A stretch of DNA of 44,058 nt from Bacteroidales bacterium (GTDB lineage Bacteria; Bacteroidota; Bacteroidia; Bacteroidales; UBA932). A program made the translations under genes and the position numbers. The stretch spans positions 1 through 44,058 of the forward strand of contig JAFRXO010000001.1 in assembly GCA_017443465.1 (NCBI GenBank). The letters run 5' to 3'. Each line of letters opens with the position of its first letter. Positions within the stretch are counted from its first letter, which is position 1. The notes under the pieces are model-generated. The model made no database searches. It had not been told where the DNA came from and saw only the letters and a list, made by a program, of their open reading frames with translations. This document shows, piece by piece, positions 1,010 to 43,153 of this stretch.

Positions 1010-1726
1010 ATGAAAAATCTTTTACACATTATTATCTTCGGGACGGCTCTTGCCGCATGCTCGCCAAAGATCACATCCAACATGACAGGCACCTACAATC
1101 CGCTTCCGGATGATGCGGAAGTCGCAGTTATCGAATATGGGGCCTCGGCGCCCGATAATGCTGAACTGCTGGGAACAATCAAGATCGGTGACTCCGGCTT
1201 TACGATGAAAGATGGCTCCTATAACGCTGTCATTTCCCTTGCAAAGGAAAAGGCGAGACAAGCCGGTGGCAATGTTGTTCAGATAACAAAACACAAGGCC
1301 CCGGATATGGTCAGTTCAATACACCGTATTGAGGCTAACATCCTTCGCGTAGCCGATGTGTCTTCGCTCGTCCTTTCTCCCGATAACACCGTCAACACCA
1401 GTCATCCTGACTATGCAATAATATATTTTTACAGGACCTCCGGAGTGGGACCGCTGGTCAATTATGAAGTGTATATCGGAGAAGAACCGGTGTACAGGGC
1501 AAAGGTAAAGTCAAAGGCTGAAGTAAAAATATATGAGGCCGGAGACATGACCATATGGGCGAAAACCGAGTCCAAGACAACACTTCCGCTTAAGGTGGAA
1601 TTGGGGGGAGAGTATTATGTGCGCTGCAGCGTCACCATGGGCGCATTTGTAGGCAGGCCTGCCCTGGAAAAGATTCCGGCATCATCAGGAAAAACGGAAT
1701 ATGAGACTATTCAAATAAAAGAATAA
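1010..1726 (+). CDS. lipoprotein with DUF2846-like C-terminal domain
   Basis: A 238-residue lipoprotein. The N-terminus is a Sec signal ending in a lipobox (TALAAC), so Cys17 would be lipidated. Residues about 35-115 resemble the small alpha/beta fold seen in RcsF/DUF4156-type proteins (VIEYG, LLGTIKIGD, AKEKARQAGGNVVQI). Residues about 135-235 contain a beta-sandwich pattern like DUF2846 (AIIYFYRTSG, VYIGEEPVYRAKVKS, YYVRCSV). Both resemblances come from reading motifs and the function is unknown. The gene abuts the outer-membrane barrel gene with no intergenic base, so the two are probably co-transcribed and act at the cell envelope. Confidence 0.7.
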   Translation: MKNLLHIIIFGTALAACSPKITSNMTGTYNPLPDDAEVAVIEYGASAPDNAELLGTIKIGDSGFTMKDGSYNAVISLAKEKARQAGGNVVQITKHKAPDMVSSIHRIEANILRVADVSSLVLSPDNTVNTSHPDYAIIYFYRTSGVGPLVNYEVYIGEEPVYRAKVKSKAEVKIYEAGDMTIWAKTESKTTLPLKVELGGEYYVRCSVTMGAFVGRPALEKIPASSGKTEYETIQIKE

Positions 1727-2446
1727 ATGTATATGCGTAAAAAACTGTTTCTCAGCCTTCTGATACTGTACGCGTCCCTGTCACTGAATGCACAGACAAT
1801 CATTACATCTGACCGGACAGTTGCTGAGAATGCTCCGTCAGTACGACTTTCAATCATGGGTGGCGGAGGATGCCGGTTGGGAAAGGCTGCATCCAACACA
1901 GAAGCTGTTCTCGCCGACCATGCAAAGCACACCAGATGGGGTGTTTCATATGGAGCCGATGCCAGCTGGTTTTTCTCCGAATCCTTGGGAGCAGGACTGA
2001 GATATAACAATCTCCATGTCGGGCATAAGACTGAAGTCACAGCGACATATGACGACGGCAGCTCACGCAGCGGACTTCTTGAAGATCATATAAACATATG
2101 GTTCCTCGGTCCGCAGTGTTCTTTCCGGTTGATGAACGCCACGAAGAAAAATGCTTTTTATTTGACATATGGTCTGGGATATATAGGGTACCATGATTCG
2201 GCAAAACTGATAGATCCTTACACCATTAAGGGCGGCACTCTTGGGTACCTGGCTGAAATCGGCTATGACATCGGCCTTTCTAAGCATCTTGCCATAGGCG
2301 CTTCCTTTTCCTTATACAACGGGACACTCAGAAACGTCAACATAACAGAGTCATCCGGAGAACGCAGGTCAGTCTCTTTGGAAAAGGATAAATATGAAGG
2401 CCTAGGCCACCTGGACCTGGCAATCGGTTTACGGTATATGCTGTGA
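1727..2446 (+). CDS. outer-membrane beta-barrel protein
   Basis: A 239-residue protein with a cleavable Sec signal (MRKKLFLSLLILYASLSLNAQ). The mature part is built of alternating amphipathic strands with aromatic girdles and glycines (LGAGLRYNNLHVGHKTEV, YLTYGLGYIGYHDSA, LAEIGYDIGLSKHLAIGASF) and ends in a hydrophobic strand (LAIGLRYML), as expected of an 8-10 strand barrel. Two starts are possible: ATG at 1727, directly after the preceding TAA, or ATG at 1733, which gives the more typical MRKK signal start. It is the second gene of a two-gene unit with the lipoprotein and is followed by a strong hairpin. The substrate or ligand is unknown. Confidence 0.75.
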   Translation: MYMRKKLFLSLLILYASLSLNAQTIITSDRTVAENAPSVRLSIMGGGGCRLGKAASNTEAVLADHAKHTRWGVSYGADASWFFSESLGAGLRYNNLHVGHKTEVTATYDDGSSRSGLLEDHINIWFLGPQCSFRLMNATKKNAFYLTYGLGYIGYHDSAKLIDPYTIKGGTLGYLAEIGYDIGLSKHLAIGASFSLYNGTLRNVNITESSGERRSVSLEKDKYEGLGHLDLAIGLRYML

Positions 2447-2450
2447 GCCT

Positions 2451-2523
2451 CTCCCCGGCCCGGTGCGGTCGCAGCTCATAAGTCGCTCCGCTCAAATCGC
2501 TGCGACCGTACCGGACCGGGGAG
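2451..2523. terminator. large bidirectional hairpin between convergent genes
   Basis: Arms 2451-2474 and 2500-2523 are 24 nt long and complementary except at two positions, with a 25-nt loop. The hairpin lies between the convergent ends of the barrel gene (+) and purD (-). No long T-run flanks it, so termination is inferred from position and stability. Confidence 0.6.
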
Positions 2524-2537
2524 CAATGCAGGGCATG

Positions 2538-5499: not shown

Positions 5500-6539
5500 T
5501 TTGAAGAATTTAAAATTGTCACACCTTCACCTTCGACTACACGGCCGATAACGGCTGCGGACTCGCCATGGGCGGCCAGGATGGATTTCGCAGTCTCGCA
5601 GTCCGACTCGTCCACGGCCAGCACCATTCCGATTCCCATATTGAAGACGTTGAACATCTCCCTGTGAGGTATTCCGCCCTCCTTCTCGAGGAAGGGGAAG
5701 ACCGGAGGTACGGTCCAGGCGCCCTCGTAGATTTCAATGCCTTGACCTTCGCGAAGGATCCTCGGGATGTTCTCGTCGAAGCCGCCGCCGGTGATATGCG
5801 CGACTCCGTGCACGTCCATGTGACGGATAACGTCGAGCACCGGACGGACATATATCTTCGTAGGAGTCAGGACCACCAGACCAAGAGGCTGGTCGCTCTG
5901 GAGGGCTTCATATGTCTTGTGCAGGTCGAGGCCTGCGTCGGAGATGATCTTGCGGACGAGGCTGAAGCCGTTCGAGTGGATTCCGGTGGAGGAAATGCCC
6001 AGCAGGACGTCCCCGGTCTTGACCTTGGAACCATCGATCAGCTTTGACTTTTCCACCACTCCGGTAGTGAATCCGGCGATGTCATATTCCCCGTCGGCGT
6101 ACATTCCGGGCATCTCGGCAGTCTCTCCGCCTACCAGGGCGCAGCCGGCCTGACGGCAGCCCTCGGCGACTCCGGCGACAATTGCCTCCACTACCTCAGG
6201 ACGGGTCTTGCCCTGAGCTACGTAGTCCAGAAAGAACAGAGGCTCAGCGCCTTGCGCCAGAACATCATTCACGCACATGGCCACGGCATCGATCCCGATG
6301 GTATCGTGCTTGTCCATGGCGAATGCCAATTTGAGTTTGGTTCCGACCCCGTCGGTACCGCTGACGAGCACAGGCTCGCGGTAACCCAGCGATGAGAGGT
6401 CAAACATGCCTCCGAAAGAGCCTATGCCGCCCATGATTCCGGGACGGGCTGTCGAAGCGACGTGCTTCTTGATCCTCCTTACCACTTCATAACCGGCCTC
6501 CAGGGAGACTCCGGCTTTCTCATAATCCGATGCTGCCAT
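5496..6539 (-). CDS. purM: phosphoribosylformylglycinamidine cyclo-ligase (AIR synthetase)
   Basis: PurM uses ATP to close FGAM to AIR, step five of the pathway. The 347-residue protein has the expected motifs: [12 protein letters not shown] near residue 40, the nucleotide-binding [44 protein letters not shown] and [15 protein letters not shown]. The start codon lies within a CATATG word (6537-6542). It is 26 nt downstream of purL and overlaps purH by 4 bp (ATGA). PurM and PurL are homologous in fold and act consecutively, and here their genes are adjacent. Confidence 0.97.
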
Positions 6540-6565
6540 ATGTTTAATATCTGTTTTCTATATGA

Positions 6566-9500
6566 TTATTTTCCTCTGAAATACCTTACTGCATTTTCGA
6601 ACAGTCCCTGGTCCATTTCCTCGCTGATATTCTTGAACAGGTTATTCTCATATCTCTCCGAGTGTCCCATCTTTCCGAGGATGCGGCCGTCGGGACTGAT
6701 AATGCCTTCGATTCCGTAATAGGAGCCGTTCGGATTCGCAGGGGAACGCATGGTAACCTGGTCGTTCTCGGGATCCACGTACTGGAATGCCACCTGTCCC
6801 CTGCTGAAGAGCTCTGCTGCCAGTGACTCGCTTACCACGAACTTGCCTTCTCCATGGCTGACCGGAATCGCGAACTGCTGTCCGATTTCCAGGGAGGACA
6901 GCCAGGGTGAATTGACTGATGCGACCCTCATTGTCGCCATCTGGGACACGTGGCGGTTGATGTCATTCCTGAAGAGCGTAGGCGACTGCTCAGTCACGCT
7001 GCCCGGGACTCCATATGGAAGGAGACCGGACTTGACGAGGGCCTGAAATCCGTTGCATATGCCCAGGATCAGGCCTCCGCGGCCCAGAAGACGGCGGATT
7101 TCGGCCGCGACTGTGGCATTGTTCAATATGCTGGCGATGAATTTTCCGCTGCCGTCCGGTTCGTCACCAAGCGAGAAGCCGCCGCAGAGGGCGAGGATCT
7201 GGCACTCGGATATGGCTTTTGCCATCTCATCGATGGAGCGCAGGATGTCATCTCCGGTAAGGTTGCAGAAGACCAGGAACCTGGTACGCGCCCCTGCTTG
7301 CCTGAAGGCCTTTGCAGTGTCGTAGTCGCAGTTGGTCCCCGGGAATACAGGGAGAAGCACCAGAGGTTCTTCGACAGGTGCCCCCGGATATTTCAGGTCG
7401 GCCTTGCGGGCCTTGACGGGCTTGACTCCGATCGCCGCAGAAGGCAGGACTGACTTCATGTCCGGCTTGCTGACTATAGGATAAATCCTGGACCAGGGTT
7501 CTTCATTGGCCTGGAGCAGGGCTGAAAGCCCAAGGGAATGTCCGTTGATCCGGACTTTGTCATCCTCGCCGTCGGTCACGCTTCCCAGAAGCACTGCTCC
7601 CGGGCATTCGAACTCACCGGCGGTCTCCACAACGATGGAGCCCGGAGCGACGCAGAAGAGATCCTCCTCGGGAACTTTCACGTTAGCGCCGAAGCCGTTT
7701 CCGAAGGACATCTTGCATATAGCCTCCACTACTCCGCCGGCACCGCAGGCGAAGCCGGACACTATGTTTCCTGATGCGATTCCGTCCCTTATGCATGCCC
7801 ACTGGGCCTTGAGGGCCTCAGTGTCGGGCATCCTGTTGGGAAGAGGAGTATGCTTGACAAGGTATATCCTGTTGCCGTCCCATTTGAATTCCGGCGAAAT
7901 GACCTTTGAGGCATTCACAGTGGTGATTCCGAAGGCCACGAGGGTCGGCGGAACATGCAGCCTGTCCTCGAAGGTTCCGCTCATCGAATCCTTACCTCCG
8001 ATCGACGGAAGGCCAAGGGCTTCCTGCATCTTCAGGGCTCCGAGAAGAGCCGAAAGCGGCAGTCCCCACATATGCGGGTCTTCCGTCATGCGGCGGAAAT
8101 ATTCCTGATATGTGAAACGCATTCCGGAGAAGTCTCCTCCGGCGGCGACTACCTTAGCGCAGGCGCTTATCACTGCGTATGCAGCTCCGTGATAGGGGCT
8201 CCATTCACTCAGCCAGGGATCGAAGCCATAAGCCATCATGCTGGCGGTGTCGGTGTAGCCGTCCGCAGGAAGCTTCTGGACCGAAACCTGGGTCTCGGTG
8301 CTGCGGTAGATTCCACCGTATGGCATCAGGACGGTAGAACGTCCGATAGTGGAGTCGAACATCTCCACGAGACCTTTCTGCGAGCATATGTCCGGGCGGC
8401 GGAGATGAGTGCGCACTTTTTCCGCAAAGTCCTTTCCTTCAGGTTCTTCCGAAGCGAACGGGTCTTTGTCTTCCACGCTGCTGATCACCGCTGAGGAGAA
8501 ATGCCTTGCGCCGGCGCTGTCGATGAACTCTCTCTTGAGGTCGGCTACGAGTTCTCCGTGGTTGTACATCCTCATGCGCTCCGTGTCAGTAACCACGGCA
8601 ACGTGAGTAACCTCCACATTCTCCTCATGGCAGAATCCCATGAAACGGGCCTCGTCCTCCGGAGCGACGACTACCGCCATCCTTTCCTGGGACTCGCTGA
8701 TAGCCAGCTCGGTAGAATTGAGTCCGCTGTATTTGACCGGAACCCTGTCCAGCCATATGTCCAGTCCGTCGGCCAGCTCGCCTATGGCAACGCTGACTCC
8801 TCCGGCGCCGAAATCATTAGACTTCTTGATAAGAGAGGTCACTTCGGGACGCCTGAAAAGCCTCTGGAGCTTCCTCTCCTGGGTGGCATCTCCCTTCTGG
8901 ACCTCGCTTCCGCAGTTCTCAAGGGAGGTCTCGTCATGCTCTTTGGAGGAGCCGGTGGCACCTCCGATACCGTCACGGCCCGTACGGCCTCCGAGAAGGA
9001 GGATCACGTCTCCGGGCGCGGGTCTCTCACGACGTACGTTAGAGGCTTTTACGGCACCGACCACTGCTCCGATCTCCATCCTCTTGGCGGTGTAGCCAGG
9101 ATGGATTATTTCGTGTACATATGTAGTGGCAAGTCCGATCTGGTTGCCGTAGCTGGAATAACCCTGGGCAGCCTTGCGGGATATGACTTTCTGCGGGAGC
9201 TTTCCGGGGATGGTCTCGGATACGCTCTTCCATATGTCTCCGGCTCCGGTGATGCGCATGGCCTGATAGACATATGCACGGCCTGAAAGCGGGTCCCTGA
9301 TGGCTCCGCCGAGGCAGGTCGCTGCACCTCCGAAGGGTTCAATCTCGGTGGGATGGTTGTGGGTCTCGTTCTTGAACATCAGGAGCCATTTCTCCACCTG
9401 TCCATCGACGTCCACATCTACATATATGCTGCAGGCATTGTTCTCCTCGCTGACTTCCATGTCATCGAGCAATCCCTTCTTTCTCAGATACTTCGCTCCT

Positions 9501-10327
9501 ATGGTAGCGATGTCCATCAGGCATATGGGCTTGCCGTCGCGGCCCAGGTCGCCGCGCATCTTCAGGTAGAGATTCAGAGTGCCTTCGATGTCTTCGCGGA
9601 TGAAGCTGTCTTCGACCCTGATATCCTGGAGTTCGGTGGTGAAAGTCGTATGGCGGCAGTGGTCGCTCCAGTAAGTGTCGAGGATCCTGAGTTCCGTCTC
9701 ATTGGGATCCCTCCCCTCGGCGGTGAAATACCTTACCACCTCGCGGAGGTCGTCGGTATTCATGGCCAGCCCCATCTTCTTGCAGAATGAAGCATATCCT
9801 TCTTCCGCCATGGCCCTGAAGCCTTCCAGTACGGGGACTGGCTTGACAGGAGCCTGTGCAGAATCGGAGAGGATGCTCATGTCCTTCTCCCTGGCCTCGA
9901 CCGGGTTGATCACATAATGCCTGACCTTGGCGAGCGCCTCGTCCGGAGTCCCCTCGGGGAAAATCAGGAGCCTTGCGCTCTTGATCCGGATCGAGGCCCC
10001 GGGATCCAGCAGCCTGACGCAATCGGCGGCAGATGCGGCCCTCTGGTCGAACTGGCCCGGAAGGTACTCAATCGCAATGCATTTCGAAGATCCGGCGTAA
10101 TTCCCGGCATCCTCATATACGGTGACGTCATCAGTGACCTTCTCTCCGAAGACGCCATATGCGGATTGCGCTACGAGTTCCTTCGAAAAGCCGAAGAGAT
10201 CATAGACATTCACAAGCCTGAGCCCGGCAAGGTCCAGCGAAAGGTTCTCGTTAAGTTCAGCGAGCATGCTGCTGGCCTCGACACGGAAAGCCGGCTTCTT
10301 CTCTACATATACTCGGAATGCTTTCAT
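6566..10327 (-). CDS. purL: FGAM synthetase, large single-chain type
   Basis: PurL converts FGAR, glutamine and ATP to FGAM. This is the long single-chain form (1253 residues), with synthetase and glutaminase parts fused, as in proteobacteria and many Bacteroidota. The synthetase part includes [32 protein letters not shown] and [12 protein letters not shown]. The C-terminal class I glutamine amidotransferase domain starts near [17 protein letters not shown] and has the nucleophile Cys1091 (GICNGFQAL) and the His1222/Glu1224 pair (GHSERYENN). No separate PurQ or PurS is needed. Its ATG overlaps the purE stop by 4 bp. It is the largest gene in the window. Confidence 0.97.
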
Positions 10328-18430: not shown

Positions 18431-19870
18431 ATGAAAAAGATTTTCTCTGCCCTGGCCATCGCGGCCATCGCCTTGATGGCGGCCGGATGCTGTTCAAAGA
18501 CTGAAGGCGGATTCAAGAAGAATTCTGAAGGTGCCATAGTAACGCCGGTGCCTGCAAGGCCCGCCGGACAGACCGATGTCATCGGACTGGTAACCCCCAA
18601 ACTCGAGACCGTAAGGATAGGTATCGTCGGACTCGGAATGAGGGGCAGCGGCGCAGTGACCCGCCTTTCCCGCGTTCCCGGAGCTAAGATCGTTGCAGTC
18701 TGCGATGTAGAAGCCGACAGGGTGGAGAAAGCCAAGAAAGCCCTTGCTGACAGGGAATACGGCGAAGTAGCCGGTTACAGCGGCTCGACTGAAGCTTTCA
18801 AGGAACTCTGCGAGAGGGATGACATCGACTTGGTCTATGTCTGCACCGACTGGGTACATCACGTACCGGTAGCCCTCTACGCCATGGAGCATGGCAAGAA
18901 CGCCGCCATCGAGGTCCCGTCTGCCTATTCGCTGGAAGACTGCTGGGCGCTGGTCAATATGTCCGAGAAGACCCGCCTCCACTGCATGATCCTCGAGAAC
19001 TGCTGCTATGACTTCTTCGAGCTCTCCACACTCGAGATGGCCAAGCAGGGAGTATTCGGAGACATAGTCCATGTAGAAGGTTCCTACAACCATAACCTCG
19101 ACCCGTTCTGGCATGAGTACTGGCAGAACTGGAGGCTTGATTTCAACCAGAAGCACCGCGGAGACGTCTATCCGACCCATGGCTTCGGTCCCATCTGCCA
19201 GGTCCTCGGCATCCACCGCGGAGACAAGCTCAACACCCTCGTGGCGATGGACACCAAGGCATTCAACGGCCCCAAGCACGTCAGGGCGCAGGGCGGCCAG
19301 GATCCGGACAACTTCGCCAACGGCGATGTCACCACTACCATGATCCGCACCGAAAAGGGCAGGAGCATCCTCATCGAGCATGATGTGATGAATCCCCGTC
19401 CCTACAGCAGGATGTACCAGGTGGTCGGAACCGACGGCTATGCCGCCAAGTATCCCGTGCAGCAGTACTGCCTCCGCAGGGAGTTCCTCAACGGAGAGCC
19501 CATCGACTATTCCAATCTCAAGGGAGAAAGGACACTAATGGGAGAGGCCCTCGCAGAACTTCAGGCAAAATATCCCTGCCCAATCCTCACCGAGGATTTT
19601 GTCAATCTGGCCAAAGAGGTCGGCGGCCATGGCGGAATGGACTTCATCATGGACTATAGGCTCGTTTACTGCCTGCGCAACGGACTCCCCCTCGACATGG
19701 ACGTCTATGACCTGGCAGAATGGTGCTCCATCGGCGAGCTGTCCGCAATCTCCATGGAAAACGGCAACGCTCCCGTCGTAGTGCCCGATTTCACCCGCGG
19801 AGCATGGAACAAGCTCAACGGATTCTCATATGCATTCGCTCCCGGCGACGGTCCGGCGGCAGCTAAATAA
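18431..19870 (+). CDS. Gfo/Idh/MocA-family lipoprotein, GH109 type (possible alpha-N-acetylgalactosaminidase)
   Basis: An exported lipoprotein (479 residues) with a Sec signal and lipobox ending AAGC (Cys20). The mature part is a Gfo/Idh/MocA protein: NAD-binding [14 protein letters not shown] (61-74), VCDVEADR, then [15 protein letters not shown], and the motif [22 protein letters not shown]. That last motif is characteristic of glycoside hydrolase family 109, whose members cleave terminal alpha-GalNAc by an NAD-dependent redox mechanism. Activity is inferred. The ATG at 18431 gives a clean signal ([10 protein letters not shown]); an ATG 18 nt upstream is less likely. It heads a tight plus-strand operon, 7 nt before cysS. 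A Sec-exported NAD enzyme must bind its cofactor outside the cytoplasm. Confidence 0.85.
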
Positions 19871-19877: not shown

Positions 19878-21449
19878 ATGAGGGAACTTTATCTAAGCGA
19901 TTCATTAAGCAGAAGCAAAAAACTCTTCATTCCAATCCACGAAGGCAGGGTCGGCATGTACGTATGCGGACCGACTGTCTATGGCGACGCCCATCTTGGA
20001 CACGCCCGCCCGGGAGTCACCTATGATGTCCTGCAGAAACTCCTGCGCCACCTGGGTTATAAGGTCCGCTATGTGAGGAACATCACCGACGTAGGCCATC
20101 TGGAGCATGATGCGGATGAAGGGGAAGACAAGATAGCGAAGAAGGCCAGGCTGGACCAGCTTGAGCCGATGGAGGTCGTCCAGACCTACACCTTCAGGTA
20201 CCACGAGGCCATGAGGGAGCTCAATGTGGCCCCTCCCTCGATTGAGCCGAGGGCTTCCGGACACATCATAGAGCAGATCGAGACGGTCAAGAAGATACTT
20301 GACGCCGGATATGCCTATGTCAGCAACGGATCGGTCTATTTCGACGTGCGCAAGTACAACGAAGACTTCCATTACGGGGTCCTTTCGGGGCGCAACATAG
20401 ACGAAACTATGGAAGGCACCAGGAACCTCGACGGGCAGGGAGACAAGAGGGCCCCGCATGATTTCGCACTCTGGAAAAAGGCTGAGCCACAGCACATCAT
20501 GAGGTGGCCTTCACCATGGGGAGAAGGTTTCCCGGGATGGCACCTGGAGTGCTCCACCATGAGCGAGAAGTACCTGGGCCGCGAATTCGACATCCACGGA
20601 GGCGGCATGGACCTTCTCTTCCCACACCATGAATGTGAGATCGCCCAGAACGAGGCTTCGCGCGGAACCCAGGGTGTGCATTACTGGGTCCACAACAACC
20701 TGATCACAATCGAAGGCAAGAAGATGGGGAAATCCCTCGGGAATTTCATCACCCTCCCGGAGCTCTTCAGCGGGAATCACCCGAAACTCGCCAAGGCATA
20801 TGCCCCGATGACGGTGCGCTTCTTCATCCTGCAGGCGCACTACCGCGGCACCCTCGATTTCTCCAATGAGGCCCTCCAGGCCGCGGAGAAGGCCCTTGAC
20901 AAGATTATGGGGGCATATGAGGACCTCAAGAAACTCGCCGCACCCCTCGGGATCAAGCCCACCGTCAAAGGCACGGAAGGCAATCCGGCGGAGGCCATGG
21001 CATATGGAGAATATGTCGATGACACCGCTCCCGATACCCTTCCTGAGGGTGTCTCTCCTGAAGTGGCGGCGGTATTCAACGGCGTCTATGATGCGCTCTG
21101 CGACGACATGAACACTCCTGTCGCCCTGGCCCATTTCTTCGATGCGGTCAAGCTGACAAACGGAGCCAAAGATGGCGCCGTAAAGCTTTCTGCAGCTGAT
21201 TATGAAGTACTTCTGCGCCTGTGGGACGACATTGTCTTCGGAGTCCTCGGACTCCGTGGAGAGCATTCCGCCGCCGCATCCTCAGACGGCCATGTCGTCA
21301 AGGGACTGATGGACATAGTCCTCAAGGAGAGGGCAGAGGCCAAGGCCGCGAAGGACTGGGCACGTTCGGATGCCATCCGGGATGCCCTGAAGGCTGCCGG
21401 AGTCACCGTGAAGGACACCAAGAACGGGGCCGAGTGGACTATTGACTGA
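19878..21449 (+). CDS. cysS: cysteinyl-tRNA synthetase
   Basis: CysS charges tRNA-Cys. It is a class I synthetase of 523 residues, somewhat longer than the common 460-500. The start is the ATG 7 nt after the GH109 stop, giving [10 protein letters not shown]; a longer frame beginning inside the upstream gene was rejected. Signatures are [16 protein letters not shown] (Cys30 as zinc ligand and HLGH at 39-42), GWHLECS and [13 protein letters not shown] for the remaining zinc site, and [13 protein letters not shown] (KMSKS loop). The C-terminal DALR-like region contains [15 protein letters not shown]. It is co-transcribed with envelope glycan genes and xth, with 8 nt to the next gene. Confidence 0.97.
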
Positions 21450-21457: not shown

Positions 21458-22210
21458 ATGAAATTCATTTCCTGGAACGTGAACGGGCTGAGGGCGTGCT
21501 TCAGCAAAGGAGACTTCGAAAAGGCTTTCGAGGCCCTGGATGCTGATTTCTTCTGCCTTCAGGAGACCAAGATGCAGTCCGGCCAGCTGGACCTGGAATT
21601 CCCCGGCTACGAGTCCTACTGGAACTTCGCCGAGAAGAAAGGCTACAGCGGGACCGCGATATACACCCGCATCAAACCGCTTGGCGTGACATATGGCATG
21701 GGAGTGGAGGAGCACGACCATGAAGGCCGGGTCATATGCCTCGAGTACGGGGATTTCTATCTCGTATGCGCATATGTCCCGAATTCCCAGGACGGGCTCA
21801 GACGCCTGGACTACAGGATGAAATGGGAAGATGATTTCCGCGCTTACCTCAGCTCGCTCGCGACTGTCAAGCCCGTAATCATGTGCGGAGACCTGAACGT
21901 AGCCCACGAGGAGATTGACATCAAGAATCCGGACACAAACCGCCGCAATGCCGGCTTCACCGACGAAGAGCGCGGGAAGTTCTCCGAACTCCTCTCGGCG
22001 GGTTTCACCGACTCCTGGCGCAAACTCAATCCGGATGTCGTGAAATACTCCTGGTGGTCCTACCGCTTTCACGCCCGCGAGAAGAACGTCGGCTGGCGCC
22101 TGGATTATTTCGTGGTCTCGGATGCCCTTTGGCCTCGGGTCACCGGAGCGGAGATCCACAATGAAATCTTCGGCTCGGACCACTGCCCCGTAGAACTGGA
22201 TATCGACTGA
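21458..22210 (+). CDS. xth: exodeoxyribonuclease III / AP endonuclease
   Basis: A 250-residue DNA-repair nuclease of the exonuclease III/APE family, cutting 5' of abasic sites in base-excision repair. It shows all family motifs: FISWNVNGLRA (Asn7), LQETKM (metal-binding Glu36), YSGTAIYTR, CGDLNVAHEEIDIKNP (Asp and Asn), FTDSWR, WWSYRFHAREKNVGWRLDYF, and the catalytic His in SDHCPV near the C-terminus. It starts 8 nt after cysS. Symbols exoA and xthA are used for the same family in different genomes. Confidence 0.95.
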   Translation: MKFISWNVNGLRACFSKGDFEKAFEALDADFFCLQETKMQSGQLDLEFPGYESYWNFAEKKGYSGTAIYTRIKPLGVTYGMGVEEHDHEGRVICLEYGDFYLVCAYVPNSQDGLRRLDYRMKWEDDFRAYLSSLATVKPVIMCGDLNVAHEEIDIKNPDTNRRNAGFTDEERGKFSELLSAGFTDSWRKLNPDVVKYSWWSYRFHAREKNVGWRLDYFVVSDALWPRVTGAEIHNEIFGSDHCPVELDID

Positions 22211-22223
22211 CATCATAACACAT

Positions 22224-24203
22224 ATGAAACTTCATCTCAACATCGCCATCGCCGTGGCGGCTGTCATTTTCGTAATGACGGCTGCCTCCTGCAGCAAGAA
22301 GGAAGTAGGATTCGTCCATCCCGGAATAGACATGACCCTTTCCGACCTGGAATACGTCAGGGACCAGATAAAGGCCGGGGATGACACGCTCAACCGCTAT
22401 TTCAATCTCCTGAAAGAAAGCACTCCGTCGGATTTCGTGCCGAAACCGCAATCCAGGGTGATCCGAGGACCGTACAACAAGCCTGACATAGGAGGCACCG
22501 CACTGTTCCAAAGCGCCCGCCAGTCCTATAACAATGCCCTGATGTGGTTCATCACCGGAGAAGAAGCATATGCAAAAAAGGCAATCGAGATTATCGACGC
22601 CTGGTCAGGGACGCTTCGCAGCTTCGATGAGAATGACACCAAGCTCATCATCGCCCTCACAGGATATGACTTCTGCAACGCCGCAGAGATCCTGAGGTAC
22701 ACATATGAAGGCTGGACCGAGAAGAACACGGAAAGCGCCTCGAGGCTGTTCAAGGAAGTGTTTTATCCCTGCATAAGGTACTATTACCCTGAGGCCAACG
22801 GCAACTGGGACGGCGCGATGATGCACACCCTACTCTCCATTGCGGTCTTCATGGATGACAAGACGATGTTCGACGATGCCATCCACCACTTCCTTACCGG
22901 ACCGTGCAACGGCAGCCTCCTCAAGTACGTGCATCCTTCCGGACAGTGCCAGGAAATGACACGTGACATGGGCCACGTACAACTGGGGCTCATCCAGTTC
23001 TCAGGGGCCGCAAGGGTTGCCTACACACAGGGGGTGGATCTCTTCGAGGTCGCTGACAAGAGGCTCGCCCTCGGCCTGGAATACGCCGCAAGGTGGATAA
23101 CCGGTGGAGAAGTACATTGCTACGGCCCCGCATCCGAGCGCGGAAGACTGAGATACACTTCCGGCTTCGACTGGTTCCTTAAACTCTACAATTCCAAAGG
23201 AGTGGACATGCCGGCCCTCAGGGAACTGGTCGCCAGGGCTAAGGGTGACCCTCTCCTCAAACTCACTTCCTACAGCAGGGAATTCCTTGACACTCCTTAT
23301 GAGTTGAAGCCGGTCCTCCCCTCTGCGGTTGCTTATCCGGCAGGAGCCCTTGAAACTGAAGAGGTCTCCTCACCTGACGCTGTAATCCTGAGGCCAGGTG
23401 ATGACATCCAGGCCTGCCTCGATGCAAATGCCGGTTCCGGAAAGACCATCCTGCTGAAAGCTGGGGAATACAAGGTCGCCAAATCCATCAACATCCCGTC
23501 CGGAATCACGTTGAAGGGCGAAGGCCTGGGCACCGTCCTGGTCTGCGAGCCAACGATCTTCAACTCGGCCCTTACCATGGAAGGCGACGTCGAGGGGAAT
23601 GTTACCTTCGAGAATTTCGTCCTCGAAGGTGCATGGGACCACGCCCCGGGCTTCGACCCCAACACCGGACGCTGGTGGCGCACCGGCAGGCTTAGCAATG
23701 ACATCAACGGAATCACTGTCATCGGAAAGGCAGGATCAACCAAGAACTTTAAATTCAAGAACCTCACAGTGATCAACTTCTCACGCCACGGGGTCTATTG
23801 CTCTGATGTGGACGGGATTGTGGTTGAAAACTGCGACTTCACAGAGAACGGATCCATGTCGATCCCGGGGGAAAGGCTCACCCATAACATCATGGTACAA
23901 AACTGCTCCGGAGTCAGGATTTCAGATTCGAGGCTTGACACCTCAACCAAGGGCGCAGGTATCTTCCTGAAATGCAGTACCGACATCGGAATAACCTCCT
24001 GTGAAATAGCCAGAAACGCATGGCACGGAGTGATCGTCCAGGATTCCGGGAATGTGACGGTCAGCGGCTGCCTGATCGAAGCCAACAACGGAGATCCGAT
24101 TCACATCGACGACCTGCTGGTCACATCGAAGAATATCTCAGTGAAGGATTGCAAGATCCAGCACAATAATTTCTACGCCCTCACGACTAACGCATTGCCT
24201 TAG
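22224..24203 (+). CDS. lipoprotein fusing an alginate-lyase-like domain to a right-handed beta-helix
   Basis: A 659-residue surface or periplasmic lipoprotein (signal to Cys23, TAASC). Residues about 60-345 match the (alpha/alpha) toroid of alginate_lyase-family proteins: GGTALFQSARQSYNNALMWF, EANGNWDGAMMHTLLS, HPSGQCQEMTRDMGHVQLG and LGLEYAARWITGGE. Residues about 385-655 are a right-handed parallel beta-helix beginning ILRPGDDIQACLDAN and continuing as regular turns (VVENCDFTEN, VRISDSRLD, ITSCEIARNAWHGVIVQDS, VTVSGCLIEANNGDPIHID). This suggests two polysaccharide lyase or epimerase-type modules in one chain; the substrate is unknown. The start ATG lies in a CATATG word. It is the fourth gene of the operon led by the GH109-like gene. 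Confidence 0.8.
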   Translation: MKLHLNIAIAVAAVIFVMTAASCSKKEVGFVHPGIDMTLSDLEYVRDQIKAGDDTLNRYFNLLKESTPSDFVPKPQSRVIRGPYNKPDIGGTALFQSARQSYNNALMWFITGEEAYAKKAIEIIDAWSGTLRSFDENDTKLIIALTGYDFCNAAEILRYTYEGWTEKNTESASRLFKEVFYPCIRYYYPEANGNWDGAMMHTLLSIAVFMDDKTMFDDAIHHFLTGPCNGSLLKYVHPSGQCQEMTRDMGHVQLGLIQFSGAARVAYTQGVDLFEVADKRLALGLEYAARWITGGEVHCYGPASERGRLRYTSGFDWFLKLYNSKGVDMPALRELVARAKGDPLLKLTSYSREFLDTPYELKPVLPSAVAYPAGALETEEVSSPDAVILRPGDDIQACLDANAGSGKTILLKAGEYKVAKSINIPSGITLKGEGLGTVLVCEPTIFNSALTMEGDVEGNVTFENFVLEGAWDHAPGFDPNTGRWWRTGRLSNDINGITVIGKAGSTKNFKFKNLTVINFSRHGVYCSDVDGIVVENCDFTENGSMSIPGERLTHNIMVQNCSGVRISDSRLDTSTKGAGIFLKCSTDIGITSCEIARNAWHGVIVQDSGNVTVSGCLIEANNGDPIHIDDLLVTSKNISVKDCKIQHNNFYALTTNALP

Positions 24204-26124: not shown

Positions 26125-27189
26125 TTATTTGTTGATTTCTTTTGCAATCCAGTCTCCAACCTCAGAGGTGGAATAAGCCTTTCCACCGGCAGCGAGGTCT
26201 TCGGTCACGATTCCTGCTGCGATTGAAGCAGCCACAGCTTCACGGATAGCCTTACCTTCCTCCATGAGTCCGAACGAATACTCGAACATCATTGCAGCCG
26301 AAAGGATGGCCGCCACCGGGTTGGCGATGTTCTTGCCGGCAGCCTGCGGGTAAGAACCATGGATGGGCTCGAACAGGCTGGTGTGCTCACCCACTGATGC
26401 GGACGCCAGCAGGCCCATGGAGCCGGAAATACAGCTGGCCTCGTCAGTGAGGATGTCCCCGAAAGTATTCTCGGTTACGAGCACATCGAAGAACTTAGGA
26501 CAGCGGATAAGCTGCATGGCGGCATTGTCCACGAACATGTAATCGACATTGACGTCAGGATACTTCGGTTCCATCTCCTGGGCGACCTGCCTCCACAGGC
26601 GTGAAGACTCCAGGACATTGGCTTTGTCCACGACTGTCAGGTGTTTGTGCCTGCGCTGGGCATACTTGAAGGCCAGGTCCAGGATACGTTCAATCTCGAA
26701 GCGGCTGTAGATACAGGTGTCATATGCAGTGTTCCCGTCGTCCTTGCGCCCTTTCTCCCCGAAATACATTCCTCCGGTGAGTTCGCGGACGCACAGGAAA
26801 TCAGCCCCGTCCACAAGTTCGGTCTTGAGGGGCGAGCGGTCGACCAGGGACTTGAAGGTCTCCACAGGACGCAGGTTGGCATACAGTCCAAGACGCTTGC
26901 GGATCGCCAGGAGGCCCTGCTCAGGCCTGACCGGAGAATTCGGGTTATTGTCATATTTTGGATCTCCCACGGCGCCGAAAAGCACGGCGTCACTGTCCAT
27001 GCATATGGAATGGGTCTCTTCAGGATATGGGTTTCCGAAACGGTCGATGGCGCATGCGCCGACATATGCAAAACTGTACTGCACATCATGACCGAAGCGG
27101 CGGCACACCGCGTCCACGGCTTTCACCGCCTGGTCAACAACTTCGGGACCTATGCCGTCTCCCGGCAATTTCGCGATTCTGAGTTTCAT
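26125..27189 (-). CDS. leuB: 3-isopropylmalate dehydrogenase
   Basis: LeuB oxidatively decarboxylates 3-isopropylmalate with NAD+, the third leucine-specific step, and may also process methylmalate in a citramalate pathway. The 354-residue protein has [15 protein letters not shown] at the N-terminus, [37 protein letters not shown], the [15 protein letters not shown] region and the family signature [19 protein letters not shown]. The start codon is in a CATATG word. It lies 10 nt after the second LeuA-like gene. Confidence 0.97.
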
Positions 27190-27199
27190 ATGTGTGTCC

Positions 27200-28717
27200 T
27201 TAAACTGTGTTTTCTATAATGTTCAACATTTTGAATGTAGCCTTGATGGCTGCTTCTGCCTGGTCGGAATCCACTCCCCTGGTCTTGAACGAGGAGCCGT
27301 CCATGTCCCAGGTAATGGTGGTCTCTACGAGGGCGTCGGTCTTTCCTCCGGGCGGGATCTTGACTATGTAGTCCGCAAGGCGCGGGTGCTTCTTCCCAAG
27401 GGAATCATATATCTTCCAGAGCGCCTTCATGAATGCGTCATACTGACCGTCGCCGGAAGCCGATTCCTCGAATTCACTGCCTCCGATGTCAATCTTCAGG
27501 TTGGCCAAAGGCCTCATCCCACGTGTAAGCTGAAGGCTATAGTTGACCAGCCGGATGTGCTCGCGGGTGAGGAAGTCTCCCTTCAGGACATCTGCGATGA
27601 TAAATGGAAGATCTTCTGTAGTAAGGCTTTCCTTCTTGTCTCCAAGTTCCACGACCCTCTGCGTCACGAGCTTCATCTGCTCGGCGGTAAGGCTGATCCC
27701 CAGCTCCTCGAGGTTCTTCATGATGTTCGCCTTGCCGCTGGTCTTGCCGAGGGCATAGTGGCGGTGACGGCCGAAACGCTCGGGCATGAGGGCGTTCTGG
27801 TAGAGCCCTCCCTTCTTGTCCCCGTCTGCATGGACGCCGCTGGTCTGGGTGAATACGAACTCGCCGATAAGAGGCTTGTTGGAAGGAATCCTGATTCCGG
27901 ATATGGTTTCGACGTACCTGCACACGTGCATCAGCTTCTTCTCATTCAGCGAATTGGGAATGTGAAGATGGTCGTTGAGGATTCCTAAAGCACTGGACAC
28001 CGGAAGATTCCCAGTCCTTTCACCCAGCCCGTTAACGGTAACGTGGATTCCCTTGACACCGGCCTTCAGGGCTCCGAAGGTGTTCGCAGCCGCGAGGTCG
28101 TAATCATTATGGGCGTGGAAGTCGAAATGGATGCCCGGATAACGGCTGATCATCATCCTGCAGAAGGACTCGGCTTTGTCTGGGTCCAATATACCGAGGG
28201 TGTCTGGGAGCATAATCCTCTTCACCGGAGCGTCCTTCAGACCGTCCACAAGGAAGAACACATAGTCCGGGGAATCAATCATCCCGTTCGACCAGTCCTC
28301 CAGATAGACATTGACCTCCAAGCCCTTGGAGCGCGCAAGCGAGATATTGGACAGGACATTGTCCAGGTGTTCCTGCGGGGTCTTGCGGAGCTGTCCGGTG
28401 ACATGCCTCAGGGAGCCTTTGGTAAGCAGGTTCATCACCTTCCCGCCGGCAGAGGCTATCCAGTCCACGGAAAGCCCGTCGTCCACGAATCCAAGCGCCT
28501 CCACCTTCTCCAGCAGACCTGTCGCAGACGCCCAGGAGCATATCTTCGCATATGCCTCCTTTTCTCCGGCGGACACCCTCGCGGACGCCACCTCTATGCG
28601 GTTGACCTTCAGTTCATCCAAAAGCAGTCTTGCAATGGCCAGCTTCTCGTCAGAATTGAAGGACACACCTGCGGTCTGCTCCCCGTCGCGGAGAGTCGTA
28701 TCCAATACTTCGATCAT
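27200..28717 (-). CDS. second LeuA-family synthase, probably citramalate synthase type
   Basis: A 505-residue enzyme of the DRE-TIM metallolyase family. The N-terminal TIM barrel has [14 protein letters not shown] (metal Asp and catalytic Arg), [11 protein letters not shown], the HxH metal site ([11 protein letters not shown]) and [14 protein letters not shown]. The C-terminal part (about residues 380-505) looks like the LeuA dimer regulatory domain. It is clearly different from the leuA product encoded upstream in the same operon. Bacteroidota operons often carry such a second copy, commonly annotated as alpha-isopropylmalate or citramalate synthase. With no threonine deaminase gene nearby, a citramalate role feeding isoleucine is a reasonable inference. 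Overlaps leuD by 4 bp. Confidence 0.85.
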
Positions 28718-29310
28718 ATGGTCTTTTTCTCGTAATCTTCTATCTTGTCTTTCTGCTGGAGAAGATAATCGATGTCATCCAGCGCATTCATCAGGCAATA
28801 CTTCTTGTAGCCGTTGATTTCGAATCTTTCACTGCGCCCGGTTGAAAGGTTGGTGACAGTCTGGTTTGGGACATCCACCCTCACCCTGGCCTTGGGATCT
28901 GCGGCTATGGTCGAGAAAAGCTCCGCGAGGAAATCCTCCGACACTGTCACCGGGAGAACGAAATTGTTAAGTTCATTATTCTTGTGGATATCCGCGAAGA
29001 AGCTGGATATCACCACTTTGAAGCCATATCCCGCGATTGCCCATGCCGCATGCTCACGGCTGGAACCGCTGCCAAAATTCCTTCCCGCGACAAGGATGTC
29101 TCCCCCATATGCCGGGTCATTCAGCACGAAAGTGGGGATGGGATTCCCCTTCGAATCGTATCTCCAGTCACGGAACAGATTCTCTCCGAAGAAAGACTCG
29201 TCCCTGGTCGTAGCCTTCAGGAACCTGGCGGGGATTATCTGGTCGGTGTCCACATTTTCCAGCGGAAGAGGGACGCACGTGCTTTCGATTATGTTGAATT
29301 TCTGTTTCAT
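28714..29310 (-). CDS. leuD: isopropylmalate isomerase small subunit
   Basis: LeuD is the swivelling small subunit that completes the LeuCD aconitase-type isomerase. The 198-residue protein carries [39 protein letters not shown] and [18 protein letters not shown], all typical of the family. It follows leuC by 11 nt and overlaps the second LeuA-like gene by 4 bp. Confidence 0.96.
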
Positions 29311-33817: not shown

Positions 33818-35530
33818 CTACTTTTTGAACCATTCGTGAGAGTTGAGCATTATCTGGTCTATGCCCTTTCCGGGAGGGATCATGGGCATCACGTTACCAT
33901 TCTCCAGCACATGGACGTCCAGGATGCATGGGGAGGAATCGCCGAGCATGACCTTCACCGCACCTTCGAGTTCGTCCCGCGACTCCACGCATATGTATTT
34001 GATTCCATATGCCTTCGCGATCAGGCTGTAGTCGGGATTCAGCATCCTGGTCTGGGAGTACCTTTCCCCGAAGAACATTTCCTGCCACTGACGGACGTTG
34101 CCGAGCCAGTTGTTGTTGAGTATTACCACCTTGACTCCGATCCCGTCCTGCATGATGGTACCGAATTCCTGGATAGTCATCTGGATCCCTCCGTCACCGA
34201 CAAACAGGCATACAGGCCTATCGGGTGAAGCCACCTTGGCGCCTATCGCGGCCGGCAGGCCGAAGCCCATGGTCCCGAGGCCGCCGGACGAGATGAAGCT
34301 GCGGGATTCCTTGAAACGGGAATAGCGTGCTGCTGAAAGCTGGTTCTGTCCGACGTCGGTCACCACTATGGCCTCCTTTCCGGAAACGGTGGCTACCATG
34401 TCCACCACCTCTCCCATCCTGACAGGACCTTCCGCCGGACGGAGTTCGGGACCTATGACCTTTTCTTCTTCGATGTCACGGCATTCCTTGAAGCTCTTGA
34501 CCCATTCTGCATGGCTTCCGCGCTGCATCTTCTCGGTAAGGGAGGAGAGCACTTTGGCAGCATCCCCGCATATGGCAACGTCCGGAGTTACTATCTTGCC
34601 CAGCTCGGCGTGGTCGATGTCTATATGTATGACCTTCGCCTGGGGGGCATATTTGGATATGACTCCGGTCACGCGGTCATCGAAACGCATTCCGACCGCA
34701 ATGAGCAGGTCGCATTCGTTGGTCTTTACATTGGGAGCGATGTTGCCGTGCATGCCGATCATCCCCTGGTAGAGGGGGAAATCGTCCGGGAGGGCGCTGA
34801 GTCCGAGCATCGTGGATCCGGCAGGGATGTCTCCCTTTGTGAGGAAGGCCTTGAGCTCTTTCTCGGCATGGCTGATCAGGATTCCCTGACCGAAGACCAC
34901 GAAAGGCTTCTTGGCGCTGTCCAGGAGTTCCACTGCCTCCCTGACTGCCTTGGGGGAAGGCTTGGGATCAGGGATGTAGCTCCTGATGAAGTTGCACTTC
35001 TTGTAACTGAAGTCAACCTTGCCCACCTGCGCATCCTTGGTGAAGTCCAGGACAACCGGCCCGGGACGCCCGGTCCTTGAGATGTAGAAAGCCCTGGACA
35101 CAGCCCACGCAATGTCTTCGGGTCTCTTTATCTGATAGTTCCACTTGGTGATGAGCCCGGTAAGGCCTGTCACGTCTGCCTCCTGGAAGGCGTCAGTTCC
35201 CAGGGCGGATGTCGGGACCTGGCCGGTGATGACCACGACCGGCGTGGAGTCGGTCATGGCATCGGCCACCCCGGTGATGACGTTGGTGGCACCAGGTCCC
35301 GAAGTCACAATGACAACGCCCGGGGTTCCTTTCACCCTGGCATATCCCTGGGCTGCATGGATCGCGCCCTGCTCATGCCTCACCAGGATGTGCCTGATGC
35401 GGTCCTGGAATTTGATGAGGCTGTCATAGACAGGCATTATCTGCCCGCCAGGATAGCCAAAGACAGTGTCTGCACCTTCTTCCAGCAATGAGAGCCAAAG
35501 CGCCTCTGATCCGGTAATAGTTTTATCCAT
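33818..35530 (-). CDS. ilvB: acetolactate synthase catalytic subunit
   Basis: IlvB is the ThDP-dependent large subunit that makes acetolactate and acetohydroxybutyrate. The 570-residue protein shows the family order: N-terminal Pyr domain with GYPGGQIMPVYDSL and catalytic Glu in VRHEQGAIHAAQGYAR, the central FAD-binding domain (MLGLSALP, GMHGNIAPN), and the ThDP/Mg2+ domain with FVGDGGIQMTIQEFGT and NNNWLGNVRQWQ. The start ATG is in a CATATG word. It is 15 nt after ilvD. Confidence 0.97.
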   Translation of the reverse strand: MDKTITGSEALWLSLLEEGADTVFGYPGGQIMPVYDSLIKFQDRIRHILVRHEQGAIHAAQGYARVKGTPGVVIVTSGPGATNVITGVADAMTDSTPVVVITGQVPTSALGTDAFQEADVTGLTGLITKWNYQIKRPEDIAWAVSRAFYISRTGRPGPVVLDFTKDAQVGKVDFSYKKCNFIRSYIPDPKPSPKAVREAVELLDSAKKPFVVFGQGILISHAEKELKAFLTKGDIPAGSTMLGLSALPDDFPLYQGMIGMHGNIAPNVKTNECDLLIAVGMRFDDRVTGVISKYAPQAKVIHIDIDHAELGKIVTPDVAICGDAAKVLSSLTEKMQRGSHAEWVKSFKECRDIEEEKVIGPELRPAEGPVRMGEVVDMVATVSGKEAIVVTDVGQNQLSAARYSRFKESRSFISSGGLGTMGFGLPAAIGAKVASPDRPVCLFVGDGGIQMTIQEFGTIMQDGIGVKVVILNNNWLGNVRQWQEMFFGERYSQTRMLNPDYSLIAKAYGIKYICVESRDELEGAVKVMLGDSSPCILDVHVLENGNVMPMIPPGKGIDQIMLNSHEWFKK

Positions 35531-35545
35531 ATGTCAAGTCTGTTG

Positions 35546-41679: not shown

Positions 41680-41730
41680 TGTAAAGAAAGTGTAAAGGTG
41701 GTGTAAAGTTTTTACAGACTTTACACCACC
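41680..41730 (+). promoter_or_regulatory. phased repeats and dyad, probable enhancer site for the sigma-54 activator
   Basis: Three TGTAAAG copies start at 41680, 41691 and 41702, exactly 11 bp apart, and the third forms part of a perfect 13-bp inverted repeat (41697-41709 and 41718-41730, 8-nt loop). The dyad centre is about 87 bp upstream of the predicted sigma-54 start site, a typical enhancer distance. The hairpin has no T-run after it, so a terminator role for the kinase gene is less likely but possible. Confidence 0.6.
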
Positions 41731-41772
41731 CATTCTACCTGTAATAGGCTAAGAATCAATCAATTAACACTT

Positions 41773-41789
41773 TTGGCACAGGGAGTGCT
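41773..41789 (+). promoter_or_regulatory. sigma-54 (-24/-12) promoter of the efflux genes
   Basis: TTGGCACAGGGAGTGCT has GG at 41775-41776 and GC at 41787-41788 with the obligatory 10-nt separation, and matches the consensus TTGGCAC-N5-TTGCT except for one base. Transcription would start near 41800, about 22 nt before the TolC start codon. Confidence 0.7.
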
Positions 41790-41821
41790 TATGTTTGGCA
41801 TGGTTAAACATAAGTATTGAT

Positions 41822-43153
41822 ATGAAAACCCTTTTCATCAATTGTGCTGTTATTGCCCTGGCGTCCGCAGTGAGTGTGTACGCCAGCGACCAGACTGCCA
41901 TGACGCTGCAGGACTGCATGCGCTATGCCGTTTCCAATTCCACGAAGGTCCGGATCCAGCAGGCTGCCATCGGTGATGCGCAGATTGACCGGCGGGATGC
42001 TGCGCTGGCGCTGTTTACGCCACAAATCAGTGCGCAGACATATGCCTATTACAACTTCGGCCGAAGCATCGACCCGCAGACGAACACCTACTTCAACACG
42101 ACCTCATTCCATAACAATTATAATATGAGCGCCGGTTACGACCTTTTCGACGGATTCAAGGCCGTAAACAACTACAAGATCTCCAAGACCGGACTTCTGA
42201 TCGCCGACTCCCAGAATAAGCAGGTGGAAGCCGATATCTGCCTGGCCGTGATGGAAGCCTATTACAACGTAGTGTACTACACACGCCTCTGCGATGTGTA
42301 CGAGGAGCAGGTAGCCACGGCCGAATCCGCCCTGAAAAAGGCTCAGCGTCAGGAAGAACTGGGGCAGAAAGGACATGCCGATGTGATCCAGATGGAGGCG
42401 GACCTGGCCGACCGCCAGTATGACCTCACCAACACGCGCAACATGTATGAGAGCCAGAGGATGACCCTTGCAGACCTGATGTTCTGGCCGGTGGACGAGG
42501 ACCTGGTCATCGACACCTCGATGCCCCTCTGGCAGGTAGAGCCTGTCTCTACAAACACAGTGGTGGACTATGCCCTTGAGCATAATCCTGCGGTCCAGAT
42601 TGCTTCCTGGCAAGAGTTCAACGCCAAGAGGGAGCTGAATACGGCCAAGTGGCAGACACTGCCTTCCGTGGGCCTATATGCCGGCTGGAGCACGAGCTAC
42701 TACACCTATCAAGGCTCCCAGACCGCGGCCTTCCAGGACCAGTTCAAGAACAACGGTGGCGAGTATGTAGAAGTTTCCGTTTCCATCCCTATCTTCAACC
42801 GGCTTTCCGGCCTTTCGAAGATTTCCCGCAAGCGCAACGCATTGCAAAAGGCTTCCGCTGAATTGGATCAGAAAAGAAGGGATGTGGAGAGCGAGGTGCG
42901 CCGGGCCATCCAGGACCGTGACGGCGCCGCCACGGCTTACCGGCAGGCGCAACACAAGGCCGAGGTGCAGGCCGAGGCATATGCCCTTAACCTGAAGAAA
43001 CTGGAGCAGGGCCTTATATCCCCGCTGGAGTTCCAGACCGCGACGGGCAACTACCTGAAGGCACAGGCCGATGAGATGAACTCTCTCTTCAAATACCTCA
43101 TCAAGCAGGCAGTGGTCCGTTACTACAATGGTGTTGAATATGTAAATCAGTAA
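41822..43153 (+). CDS. TolC-family outer-membrane efflux channel
   Basis: A 443-residue TolC-like protein. The start is the ATG at 41822, which gives a clean Sec signal (MKTLFINCAVIALASAVSVYA); a longer frame from TTG at 41795 would start upstream of the predicted transcript. The mature protein has the two-fold repeat of OEP domains: LQDCMRYAVSNSTKVRIQ with ALFTPQISAQTYAYYNFGRSIDP, then VVDYALEHNPAVQIASWQE with KWQTLPSVGLYAGWST. Long coiled-coil helices follow each (ESALKKAQRQEELGQKG; AELDQKRRDVESEVRRAI). It is the outer-membrane part of a tripartite pump; the adaptor gene begins 6 nt downstream. Confidence 0.93.
   Translation: MKTLFINCAVIALASAVSVYASDQTAMTLQDCMRYAVSNSTKVRIQQAAIGDAQIDRRDAALALFTPQISAQTYAYYNFGRSIDPQTNTYFNTTSFHNNYNMSAGYDLFDGFKAVNNYKISKTGLLIADSQNKQVEADICLAVMEAYYNVVYYTRLCDVYEEQVATAESALKKAQRQEELGQKGHADVIQMEADLADRQYDLTNTRNMYESQRMTLADLMFWPVDEDLVIDTSMPLWQVEPVSTNTVVDYALEHNPAVQIASWQEFNAKRELNTAKWQTLPSVGLYAGWSTSYYTYQGSQTAAFQDQFKNNGGEYVEVSVSIPIFNRLSGLSKISRKRNALQKASAELDQKRRDVESEVRRAIQDRDGAATAYRQAQHKAEVQAEAYALNLKKLEQGLISPLEFQTATGNYLKAQADEMNSLFKYLIKQAVVRYYNGVEYVNQ

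Follow-up and report, generated by a model that had tools for sequence, protein, structure and literature searches.

The element described here is the hexamer CATATG, as it occurs in a 44,058-nucleotide stretch of a Bacteroidales draft genome (the window, meaning that whole stretch), and its closest described counterparts are short words of other bacteria. The DNA uptake sequences (DUS) and uptake signal sequences (USS) of Neisseria and Haemophilus are short words, present in excess, that build up through substitution; they are longer and not palindromic. CATATG itself is recognised by the NdeI and FauNDI restriction-modification systems, and genomes usually avoid the sites of such systems. 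The nearest analogue is a highly iterated palindrome (HIP) of Cyanobacteria, HIP1 (GCGATCGC), described in 1995 (by the reference list of PMC6604393) and still debated as to its function. According to the sections of PMC4390886 that deal with them, HIPs reach 1000-2000 copies per Mb (section 3.1) and accompany methyltransferases, yet in some genomes HIP1 is overrepresented without a CGATCG methyltransferase (section 3.4). The same sections describe alternate HIPs (GGCGCC, GCSGC, RCCGGY and GGGATCCC), which they call GC-rich and match to putative methyltransferases capable of methylating them. Selection at HIP1 has been argued for, as PMC6604393 reports in citing Xu et al. 2018.

CATATG resembles HIP1 in being a short palindrome, singular in its genome and scattered over coding and non-coding DNA, at about 1600 copies per Mb against the density that section 3.1 of PMC4390886 gives for HIPs. 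Its sites are conserved, differ by substitution and deviate more commonly at the word ends, with the caveat that no single difference between sister genomes fell at position 1. Singular overrepresentation, density, propagation by substitution and end-position deviations are HIP-class traits (Elhai 2015) that it shares, and GC richness is one that it lacks (33% GC). It further differs from HIP1 in having six bases, in belonging to Bacteroidota, in occurring in two of 818 genomes and in that no methyltransferase was found among the Pfam families searched. With the alternate HIPs, as PMC4390886 presents them, it shares a sporadic occurrence in single genomes or small groups; unlike them, it is not GC-rich, and the families searched yielded no putative methyltransferase to pair with it. 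Unlike DUS and USS, it has no long flanking consensus and no sign of density saturation, and unlike most sites of restriction systems it is in excess, with no methyltransferase found in that same search. We conclude that CATATG is an AT-rich element resembling HIP1 in a phylum other than Cyanobacteria, sharing most of the HIP traits tested, in line with the preliminary description of the window, which had named HIP1 as the nearest known analogy.

Excess of CATATG in the window and its source genome

The window holds exactly 73 copies of CATATG, its top-count hexamer, where a first-order model expects 9.1 and dinucleotide-preserving shuffles (n = 100) gave a mean of 9.17 (standard deviation 2.56, maximum 17). 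The preliminary description had put the count at about 73 and the excess at about eightfold; both figures hold, and the phenomenon as a whole proved stronger than claimed there. Its figure of 10-16 for each sister word was close for some and slightly low for others, the counts (with those of the reverse complement in brackets) being CATATA 14 (12), CATATC 17 (18) and CATATT 14 (20). Palindromes of equal composition show little or no excess in the window (GTATAC 0; CTATAG 6 against 4.3 expected).

The source genome, G000, is a 2.65-Mb draft in 81 contigs, 96% complete, with 4230 CATATG and 79 copies of the reversed word GTATAC. A 425-kb sample of it was analysed, consisting of nineteen 20-kb stretches, a masked 1.5-kb contig and the window. 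CATATG is the most over-represented hexamer of this sample (719 copies against 94 expected to first order and 200 to second order), and its density lies between 1.15 and 2.25 per kb in all nineteen stretches. Open reading frames (ORFs) were called mechanically, with a minimum of 120, 150 or 200 amino acids depending on the analysis, and are not curated genes; density is 1.62 per kb inside long ORFs and 1.51 outside. A codon-shuffle test of all palindromes in 44 genomes or loci gave CATATG ratios of 4.1 and 4.4 (z about 39) in G000 and in the draft genome of a sister species, G423 (about 2.1 Mb, 79% complete, its sample partly masked), the expectation being inflated in these two because their codon pools are already altered. 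The runner-up z was 10 (TCCGGA in G000, 1.7-fold) and the runner-up ratio 3.0 (CATATG with 20 copies and ATATAT with 30, both in G115, of the same genus). After codon and dinucleotide correction the ratio therefore stays far above 1, and words of equal composition are not in like excess. Non-coding DNA defined more strictly gives word-to-neighbour ratios of 6.0 for G000 (18 copies) and 8.4 for G423 (26 copies, partly masked), against 0.81 for relatives (4 copies).

Other palindromes also departed from codon-shuffle expectation. TCCGGA is 1.6-2.7-fold above it in several genus members, including G000, G423, G211 (sample likewise partly masked) and some relatives' loci, and ATGCAT is 1.7-1.8-fold above it in G000, G423 and G211. 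GTATAC is depleted, at 0 to 0.54 of expectation, including in sampled genomes without CATATG excess.

The copies and clusters singled out in the window are listed below; gene names are putative, in part those of the preliminary description. All five start codons cited there (6539, 22224, 27189, 28717 and 35530) indeed lie inside the word.

1552..42983, stretch holding all 73 CATATG of the window (1.66 per kb)
1947..2171, four copies, at 1947, 2046, 2095 and 2166
6537..6542, copy over the start codon of the minus-strand ORF called purM
9118..9276, three copies (9118, 9231 and 9271) in ORF 6566-10327, which is purL by its relatives
20797..21006, three copies (20797, 20914 and 21001) in ORF 19830-21449
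21690..21776, three copies, at 21690, 21733 and 21771
22221..22226, copy over the start codon of the plus-strand ORF called beta-helix lipoprotein
26721..27068, three copies (26721, 27002 and 27063) in ORF 26125-27189
27187..27192, copy over the start codon of the minus-strand ORF called leuB
28715..28720, copy over the start codon of the minus-strand ORF called leuA2
33990..34011, pair of copies at a spacing of 10 bases; the genome has 7 such pairs
35528..35533, copy over the start codon of the minus-strand ORF called ilvB

Silent-site saturation, conservation and spacing

Places where CATATG is possible without changing the protein are filled in 632 of 804 cases in G000 (79%) and 601 of 817 in G423 (74%), against 82 of 765 (11%) in 29 relatives' loci, a control made up of loci around purL, picked by PurL similarity, and not of whole genomes. 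In 300 mechanical ORFs of the 425-kb sample the word occupies all three codon phases (92, 377 and 148 copies) and forces codon choice, as the preliminary description had stated. His before Met is written CAT:CAC 92:7, compared with 1180:1075 elsewhere; where Ile is flanked by C and TG, 148 of 163 codons are ATA (ATC 11, ATT 4), compared with 886 ATA, 1744 ATC and 552 ATT elsewhere (28% ATA); and for Tyr with xCA before and G after, TAT prevails 377:10, compared with 118:40 elsewhere.

Expressed as silent odds ratios, the preference in G000 is 16 at position 2, 11 at position 3, 25 (A:C) and 21 (A:T) at position 4 and 12 at position 5, alike in size for T:C, A:C, A:T and A:others. The ratios in G423 are 7.5 at position 2, 6 at position 3, 13 (A:C) at position 4 and 14 at position 5, with an A:T value of 74 that comes from a cell without any ATT, and a larger G423 sample gave about 6.6 at position 3 and about 15 for A:C at position 4. 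Convertible codons give position 1 odds of 7.4 and 5.6 in G000 and G423, and the named relatives show silent odds of 0.3-1.0. A CAT immediately upstream of an ATG start was found in 35 of 212 (16.5%) and 23 of 181 (12.7%) starts, compared with 0 of 244 in relatives. If the upstream triplet is free, these imply odds of 12.5 and 9.2, which match the silent sites, so that a special start-codon role is not needed.

Filling is nearly homogeneous among loci (chi2 28.7 for 20 G000 loci, 43.3 for 40 G423 loci), with low-filling stretches in loci L019 (0.5-6.4 kb), L261 (11.4-19.3 kb) and L234 (5.8-8.7 kb). SusD-like and SusC genes, which are often transferred between species, lie within the low-filling stretches L019:25-6648 and L261:11174-18612. 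The low-filling stretches of L019 and L261 are possibly recent arrivals, slowly converted.

One-mismatch words that could be converted silently are reduced to 0.44 (end), 0.23 (second) and 0.21 (centre) of shuffled expectation, against 1.00, 1.08 and 1.26 in relatives. Those whose conversion needs a protein change stand at 1.40, 0.90 and 1.21, against 1.21, 0.98 and 1.14. Because near-words are scarce only where silently convertible, it is CATATG that is preferred, and near-words do no harm in themselves; their avoidance is ruled out by the non-convertible forms, at 0.90-1.40 of expectation. The proposal that the pressure bears on the word as DNA, rather than on the protein, is supported. The protein sequence itself is affected a little: agreement of residues with outgroups is lower at word codons (186 of 599 comparisons) than at same-composition control words (2929 of 6870; comparisons not independent).

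Sites are conserved between the sister species. In a G000/G423 alignment of 63 kb in 10 pieces, 98 CATATG are common to both, out of 117 and 115, a Dice coefficient of 0.84. Pooled, the other 63 palindromes give 0.36 and 179 words of the same composition 0.40, while some individual palindromes attain 0.63-0.75 (GAATTC with 31 shared sites, GCATGC with 10, AAATTT with 6). Single differences between the two genomes number 18; they fall at positions 2-6 (none at position 1, four at position 6) and are of many types, transitions making up 5 of them compared with about half of all sister differences. In the 425-kb sample, end-mismatch neighbours are 1.5-2.8-fold above expectation and centre-mismatch neighbours at 0.5-0.7. 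Outgroup alignments (54 sites, from a comparison of 21 genes and 155 non-independent ortholog pairs) show CATATG in some outgroup at 10 of the 54 G000 sites. At His-Met sites, outgroups with the same residues carry CACATG 29 times and CATATG 20 times; elsewhere the outgroup forms (CATCTG, CATACG, CTTACG, CTTATG, CCTATG, CGTACG and others) amount to transitions, transversions and double changes. A single type of mutation, such as deamination or a very-short-patch-like process, is rejected by the similar odds across T:C, A:C, A:T and A:others and by the 5 of 18 transitions. The earlier suggestion of selection or a mutation/repair bias is partly supported and is refined in this respect: with transitions affected as well as transversions, the bias is not one of a single mutation type.

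Gaps between copies fit a Poisson law (coefficient of variation 0.95), and the filled fraction hardly depends on the distance to another copy: 0.81 (96 of 118) within 50 bases, 0.70-0.77 between 50 and 1600 bases, and 9 of 10 at greater distances. The flanks carry no long consensus, just a mild G at -1 and C at +1. Filling and spacing independent of other copies speak against an uptake role, which the preliminary description had left open, and make density-limited roles in general unlikely.

Distribution among genomes and search for a recognising agent

CATATG was counted in 818 genomes, made up of 424 (sets of 61 and 400, 37 of them common) and 394 further genomes from the phylum. Only G000 and G423 (3353 copies) reach about 1.6 per kb. 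The next densities all belong to the same genus (G211 about 0.72, G026 about 0.68, G115 about 0.65 per kb), and in the phylum sample none besides G000 exceeds about 0.45 per kb. Among the genomes counted, the trait is therefore confined to G000 and one sister species. The assignment of G423 as that sister rests on sequence similarity: 26 reciprocal best hits have a median protein identity of 90.5%, the first 20 at 81-99% and the rest paralogue-like, and nucleotide identity over the aligned 63 kb is 83.8% (16% of aligned bases differ). The named relatives' loci have a median protein identity of 70% (26 reciprocal best hits), and purL nucleotide identity to other genus members is 67-74% among the matches listed. 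The closest PurL records belong to Bacteroidales sampled from rumen, from horse and from other sources, and some of them carry the name Candidatus Cryptobacteroides.

A separate origin in G211, the genome with the third-highest count, found no support: its GC content is 43% and its silent odds are mostly 0.6-1.8, with one cell of 5.8 from 12 codons. G228, G296, G254 and G421 show weak effects at most, in small samples. In G115 (loci L266-L269; 57% GC, 39-kb sample), 20 coding CATATG were observed against 6.6-6.9 expected from codon shuffling, and ATATAT was also 3-fold in excess; G115 may show the trait in a weak or incipient form. Scanning viral contigs for three closely spaced copies returned at least 120 stretches, and 75 of the 80 loci listed (at least 3 kb) were measured. 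The contigs L367, L338, L350 and L293 carry 1.65-7.6 CATATG per kb of fetched stretch, a density biased by cluster selection, and some are repetitive. A script search of the sampled stretches of G000, G423 and G211 found no clustered regularly interspaced short palindromic repeat (CRISPR) array, so host phages could not be named from spacers. In the open-licence literature, at the level of titles and abstract openings, we found no report of CATATG as an overrepresented word.

Searches for a recognising agent covered 20 of the 424 genomes. Twelve of the 18 others match at least one of the methyltransferase families PF01555, PF02384, PF02086 and PF00145 at E <= 1e-10, and six match none, so the lack of all four in G000 and G423 is not unusual in the genus. 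PF05063 had no match anywhere, controls included, and is uninformative. Taken together, no DNA methyltransferase was found in the two draft genomes with five informative Pfam families, these four and PF07669. The methyltransferase role entertained in the preliminary description, which the HIP1 analogy would predict, thus gains no support here from drafts that may lack the gene. Three tyrosine recombinases were found in each of G000 and G423, and mobile islands may be missing from both assemblies. A diverged tyrosine recombinase in a 483-amino-acid frame lies near a contig start in each (G000:C30:407-784 and G423:C223:354-731).

Explanations and significance

The leading explanation, which we consider evenly balanced between right and wrong, is that a protein of this lineage recognises CATATG and gives each copy a local fixation advantage. 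Such a protein would be present in the G000 lineage and its sister and not active in the sampled relatives; it would recognise the exact palindrome, probably as a homodimer, and every copy would thereby be favoured in reaching and keeping fixation. At mutation-drift equilibrium, the observed odds would translate into a per-site scaled bias of about 2-3, weak enough that protein constraint would mostly stop it. All tested types of change are favoured, neighbouring copies are irrelevant and silent sites behave much like start codons, which fits such a bias on the exact word. With less assurance, we suggest that mismatch repair or gene conversion may favour CATATG-bearing strands, a molecular drive related to Elhai's proposal for cyanobacterial HIPs, rather than each copy benefiting the cell; biased repair or gene conversion would naturally favour the word copy by copy. 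By precedent, the obvious candidate agent would be a cognate DNA methyltransferase, though none was found.

Several observations weigh against this explanation. From odds ratios, biased repair and weak additive selection cannot be told apart, and the stricter non-coding ratios (6.0 and 8.4) lie somewhat below the silent odds. Partial words behave unevenly: CATAT with a non-G base after it is favoured in one codon phase (TAT after xCA 0.74 versus 0.40; relatives 0.50 versus 0.49) but not in the His-Ile phase, where CAT before Ile shows no effect exceeding that in relatives; ATATG following a non-C base is favoured about 2-fold (ATA before TG, where the preceding codon cannot end in C, 0.43 versus 0.28; relatives 0.34 versus 0.30). 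This pattern could stem from decayed former full words or from weak partial recognition. Amino-acid effects are uneven too (His-Met 99 versus 64, Ile-Cys 160 versus 106, Ile-Trp 111 versus 112). A mild G preference at -1 (21 of 44 and 18 of 34 four-fold sites, versus 21-25% elsewhere) means that the length of the word is perhaps not exactly six bases; it recalls the GC context in Elhai's HIP model, but is weak. Finally, no agent was found: PF01555, PF02384, PF02086 and PF00145 have no match in G000 or G423, and PF07669 has weak matches only, to PrmC in both genomes (L169, L168) and to a TrmN-like enzyme in G000 (L180, below the TrmN cut-off).

Functional selection would give the same silent odds, each copy being a useful binding or marking site, weakly selected singly, for nucleoid organisation, chromosome maintenance or self-marking. 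The strong conservation of sites between the sisters fits it, as does the case for selection at HIP1 in what PMC6604393 relays from Xu et al. 2018. With no density effect and Poisson spacing, however, the benefit would have to be additive across some 4000 sites, and we regard this explanation as possible though doubtful. Unlikely, in our judgement, is the special case of the leading explanation in which a cognate methyltransferase acts together with methylation-directed mismatch repair, in the manner of Elhai's proposal for cyanobacterial HIPs, its gene belonging to an unsearched family or lying on a missing contig. The link between HIP1 and its methyltransferase is not strict in Cyanobacteria either, by the account in PMC4390886, and in G000 and G423 the four families gave no match and PF07669 only PrmC and the TrmN-like enzyme, when 12 of 18 other genomes do match. 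In its favour, the drafts are incomplete (96% and 79%), with three tyrosine recombinases each and mobile islands that may be missing, and 6 of 18 other genomes likewise lack the first four families.

We consider it improbable that CATATG is an uptake or recombination signal, DUS/USS-like or Chi-like, by which word-bearing fragments are preferentially taken up or recombined. Such signals accumulate by substitution too, but their drive should fade once fragments hold a copy, and filling remains 0.70-0.81 within 400 bases of another copy; the long flanking consensus is also missing. A single-type mutation bias, codon usage or base composition has in its favour the 1.6-3-fold excesses of ATATAT, TCCGGA and ATGCAT after codon shuffling in some genomes, but is very improbable, given that transitions and transversions are favoured at several positions, GTATAC is depleted, the 179 same-composition words reach a Dice coefficient of 0.40 and the relatives' loci show nothing. 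An assembly or binning artefact, thinkable as both genomes are drafts, is scarcely credible with an excess in every one of the nineteen stretches and in two assemblies at 84% nucleotide identity.

Possibly, though we hold it less likely than not, CATATG is a highly iterated palindrome that arose and was driven near silent saturation without DNA methylation, through a recognition protein gained on one Bacteroidales branch. In practical terms, CATATG may mark DNA of the G000 and G423 species in metagenomes, and the filling of silent sites (79% and 74% versus 11%) offers a simple codon-controlled screen for similar words in genome collections. HIP1 is so spread across Cyanobacteria that cause and effect are difficult to disentangle there; CATATG provides the same kind of word in another phylum, in one sister pair, among numerous congeneric relatives lacking the trait. 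A comparison of gene content across that branch, together with long-read modification data, could name the agent. If true, a methylation-free drive of this kind would amount to a molecular drive that is site-specific and works on one copy of the word at a time, and it would weaken the case for methylation as what causes HIPs in general.

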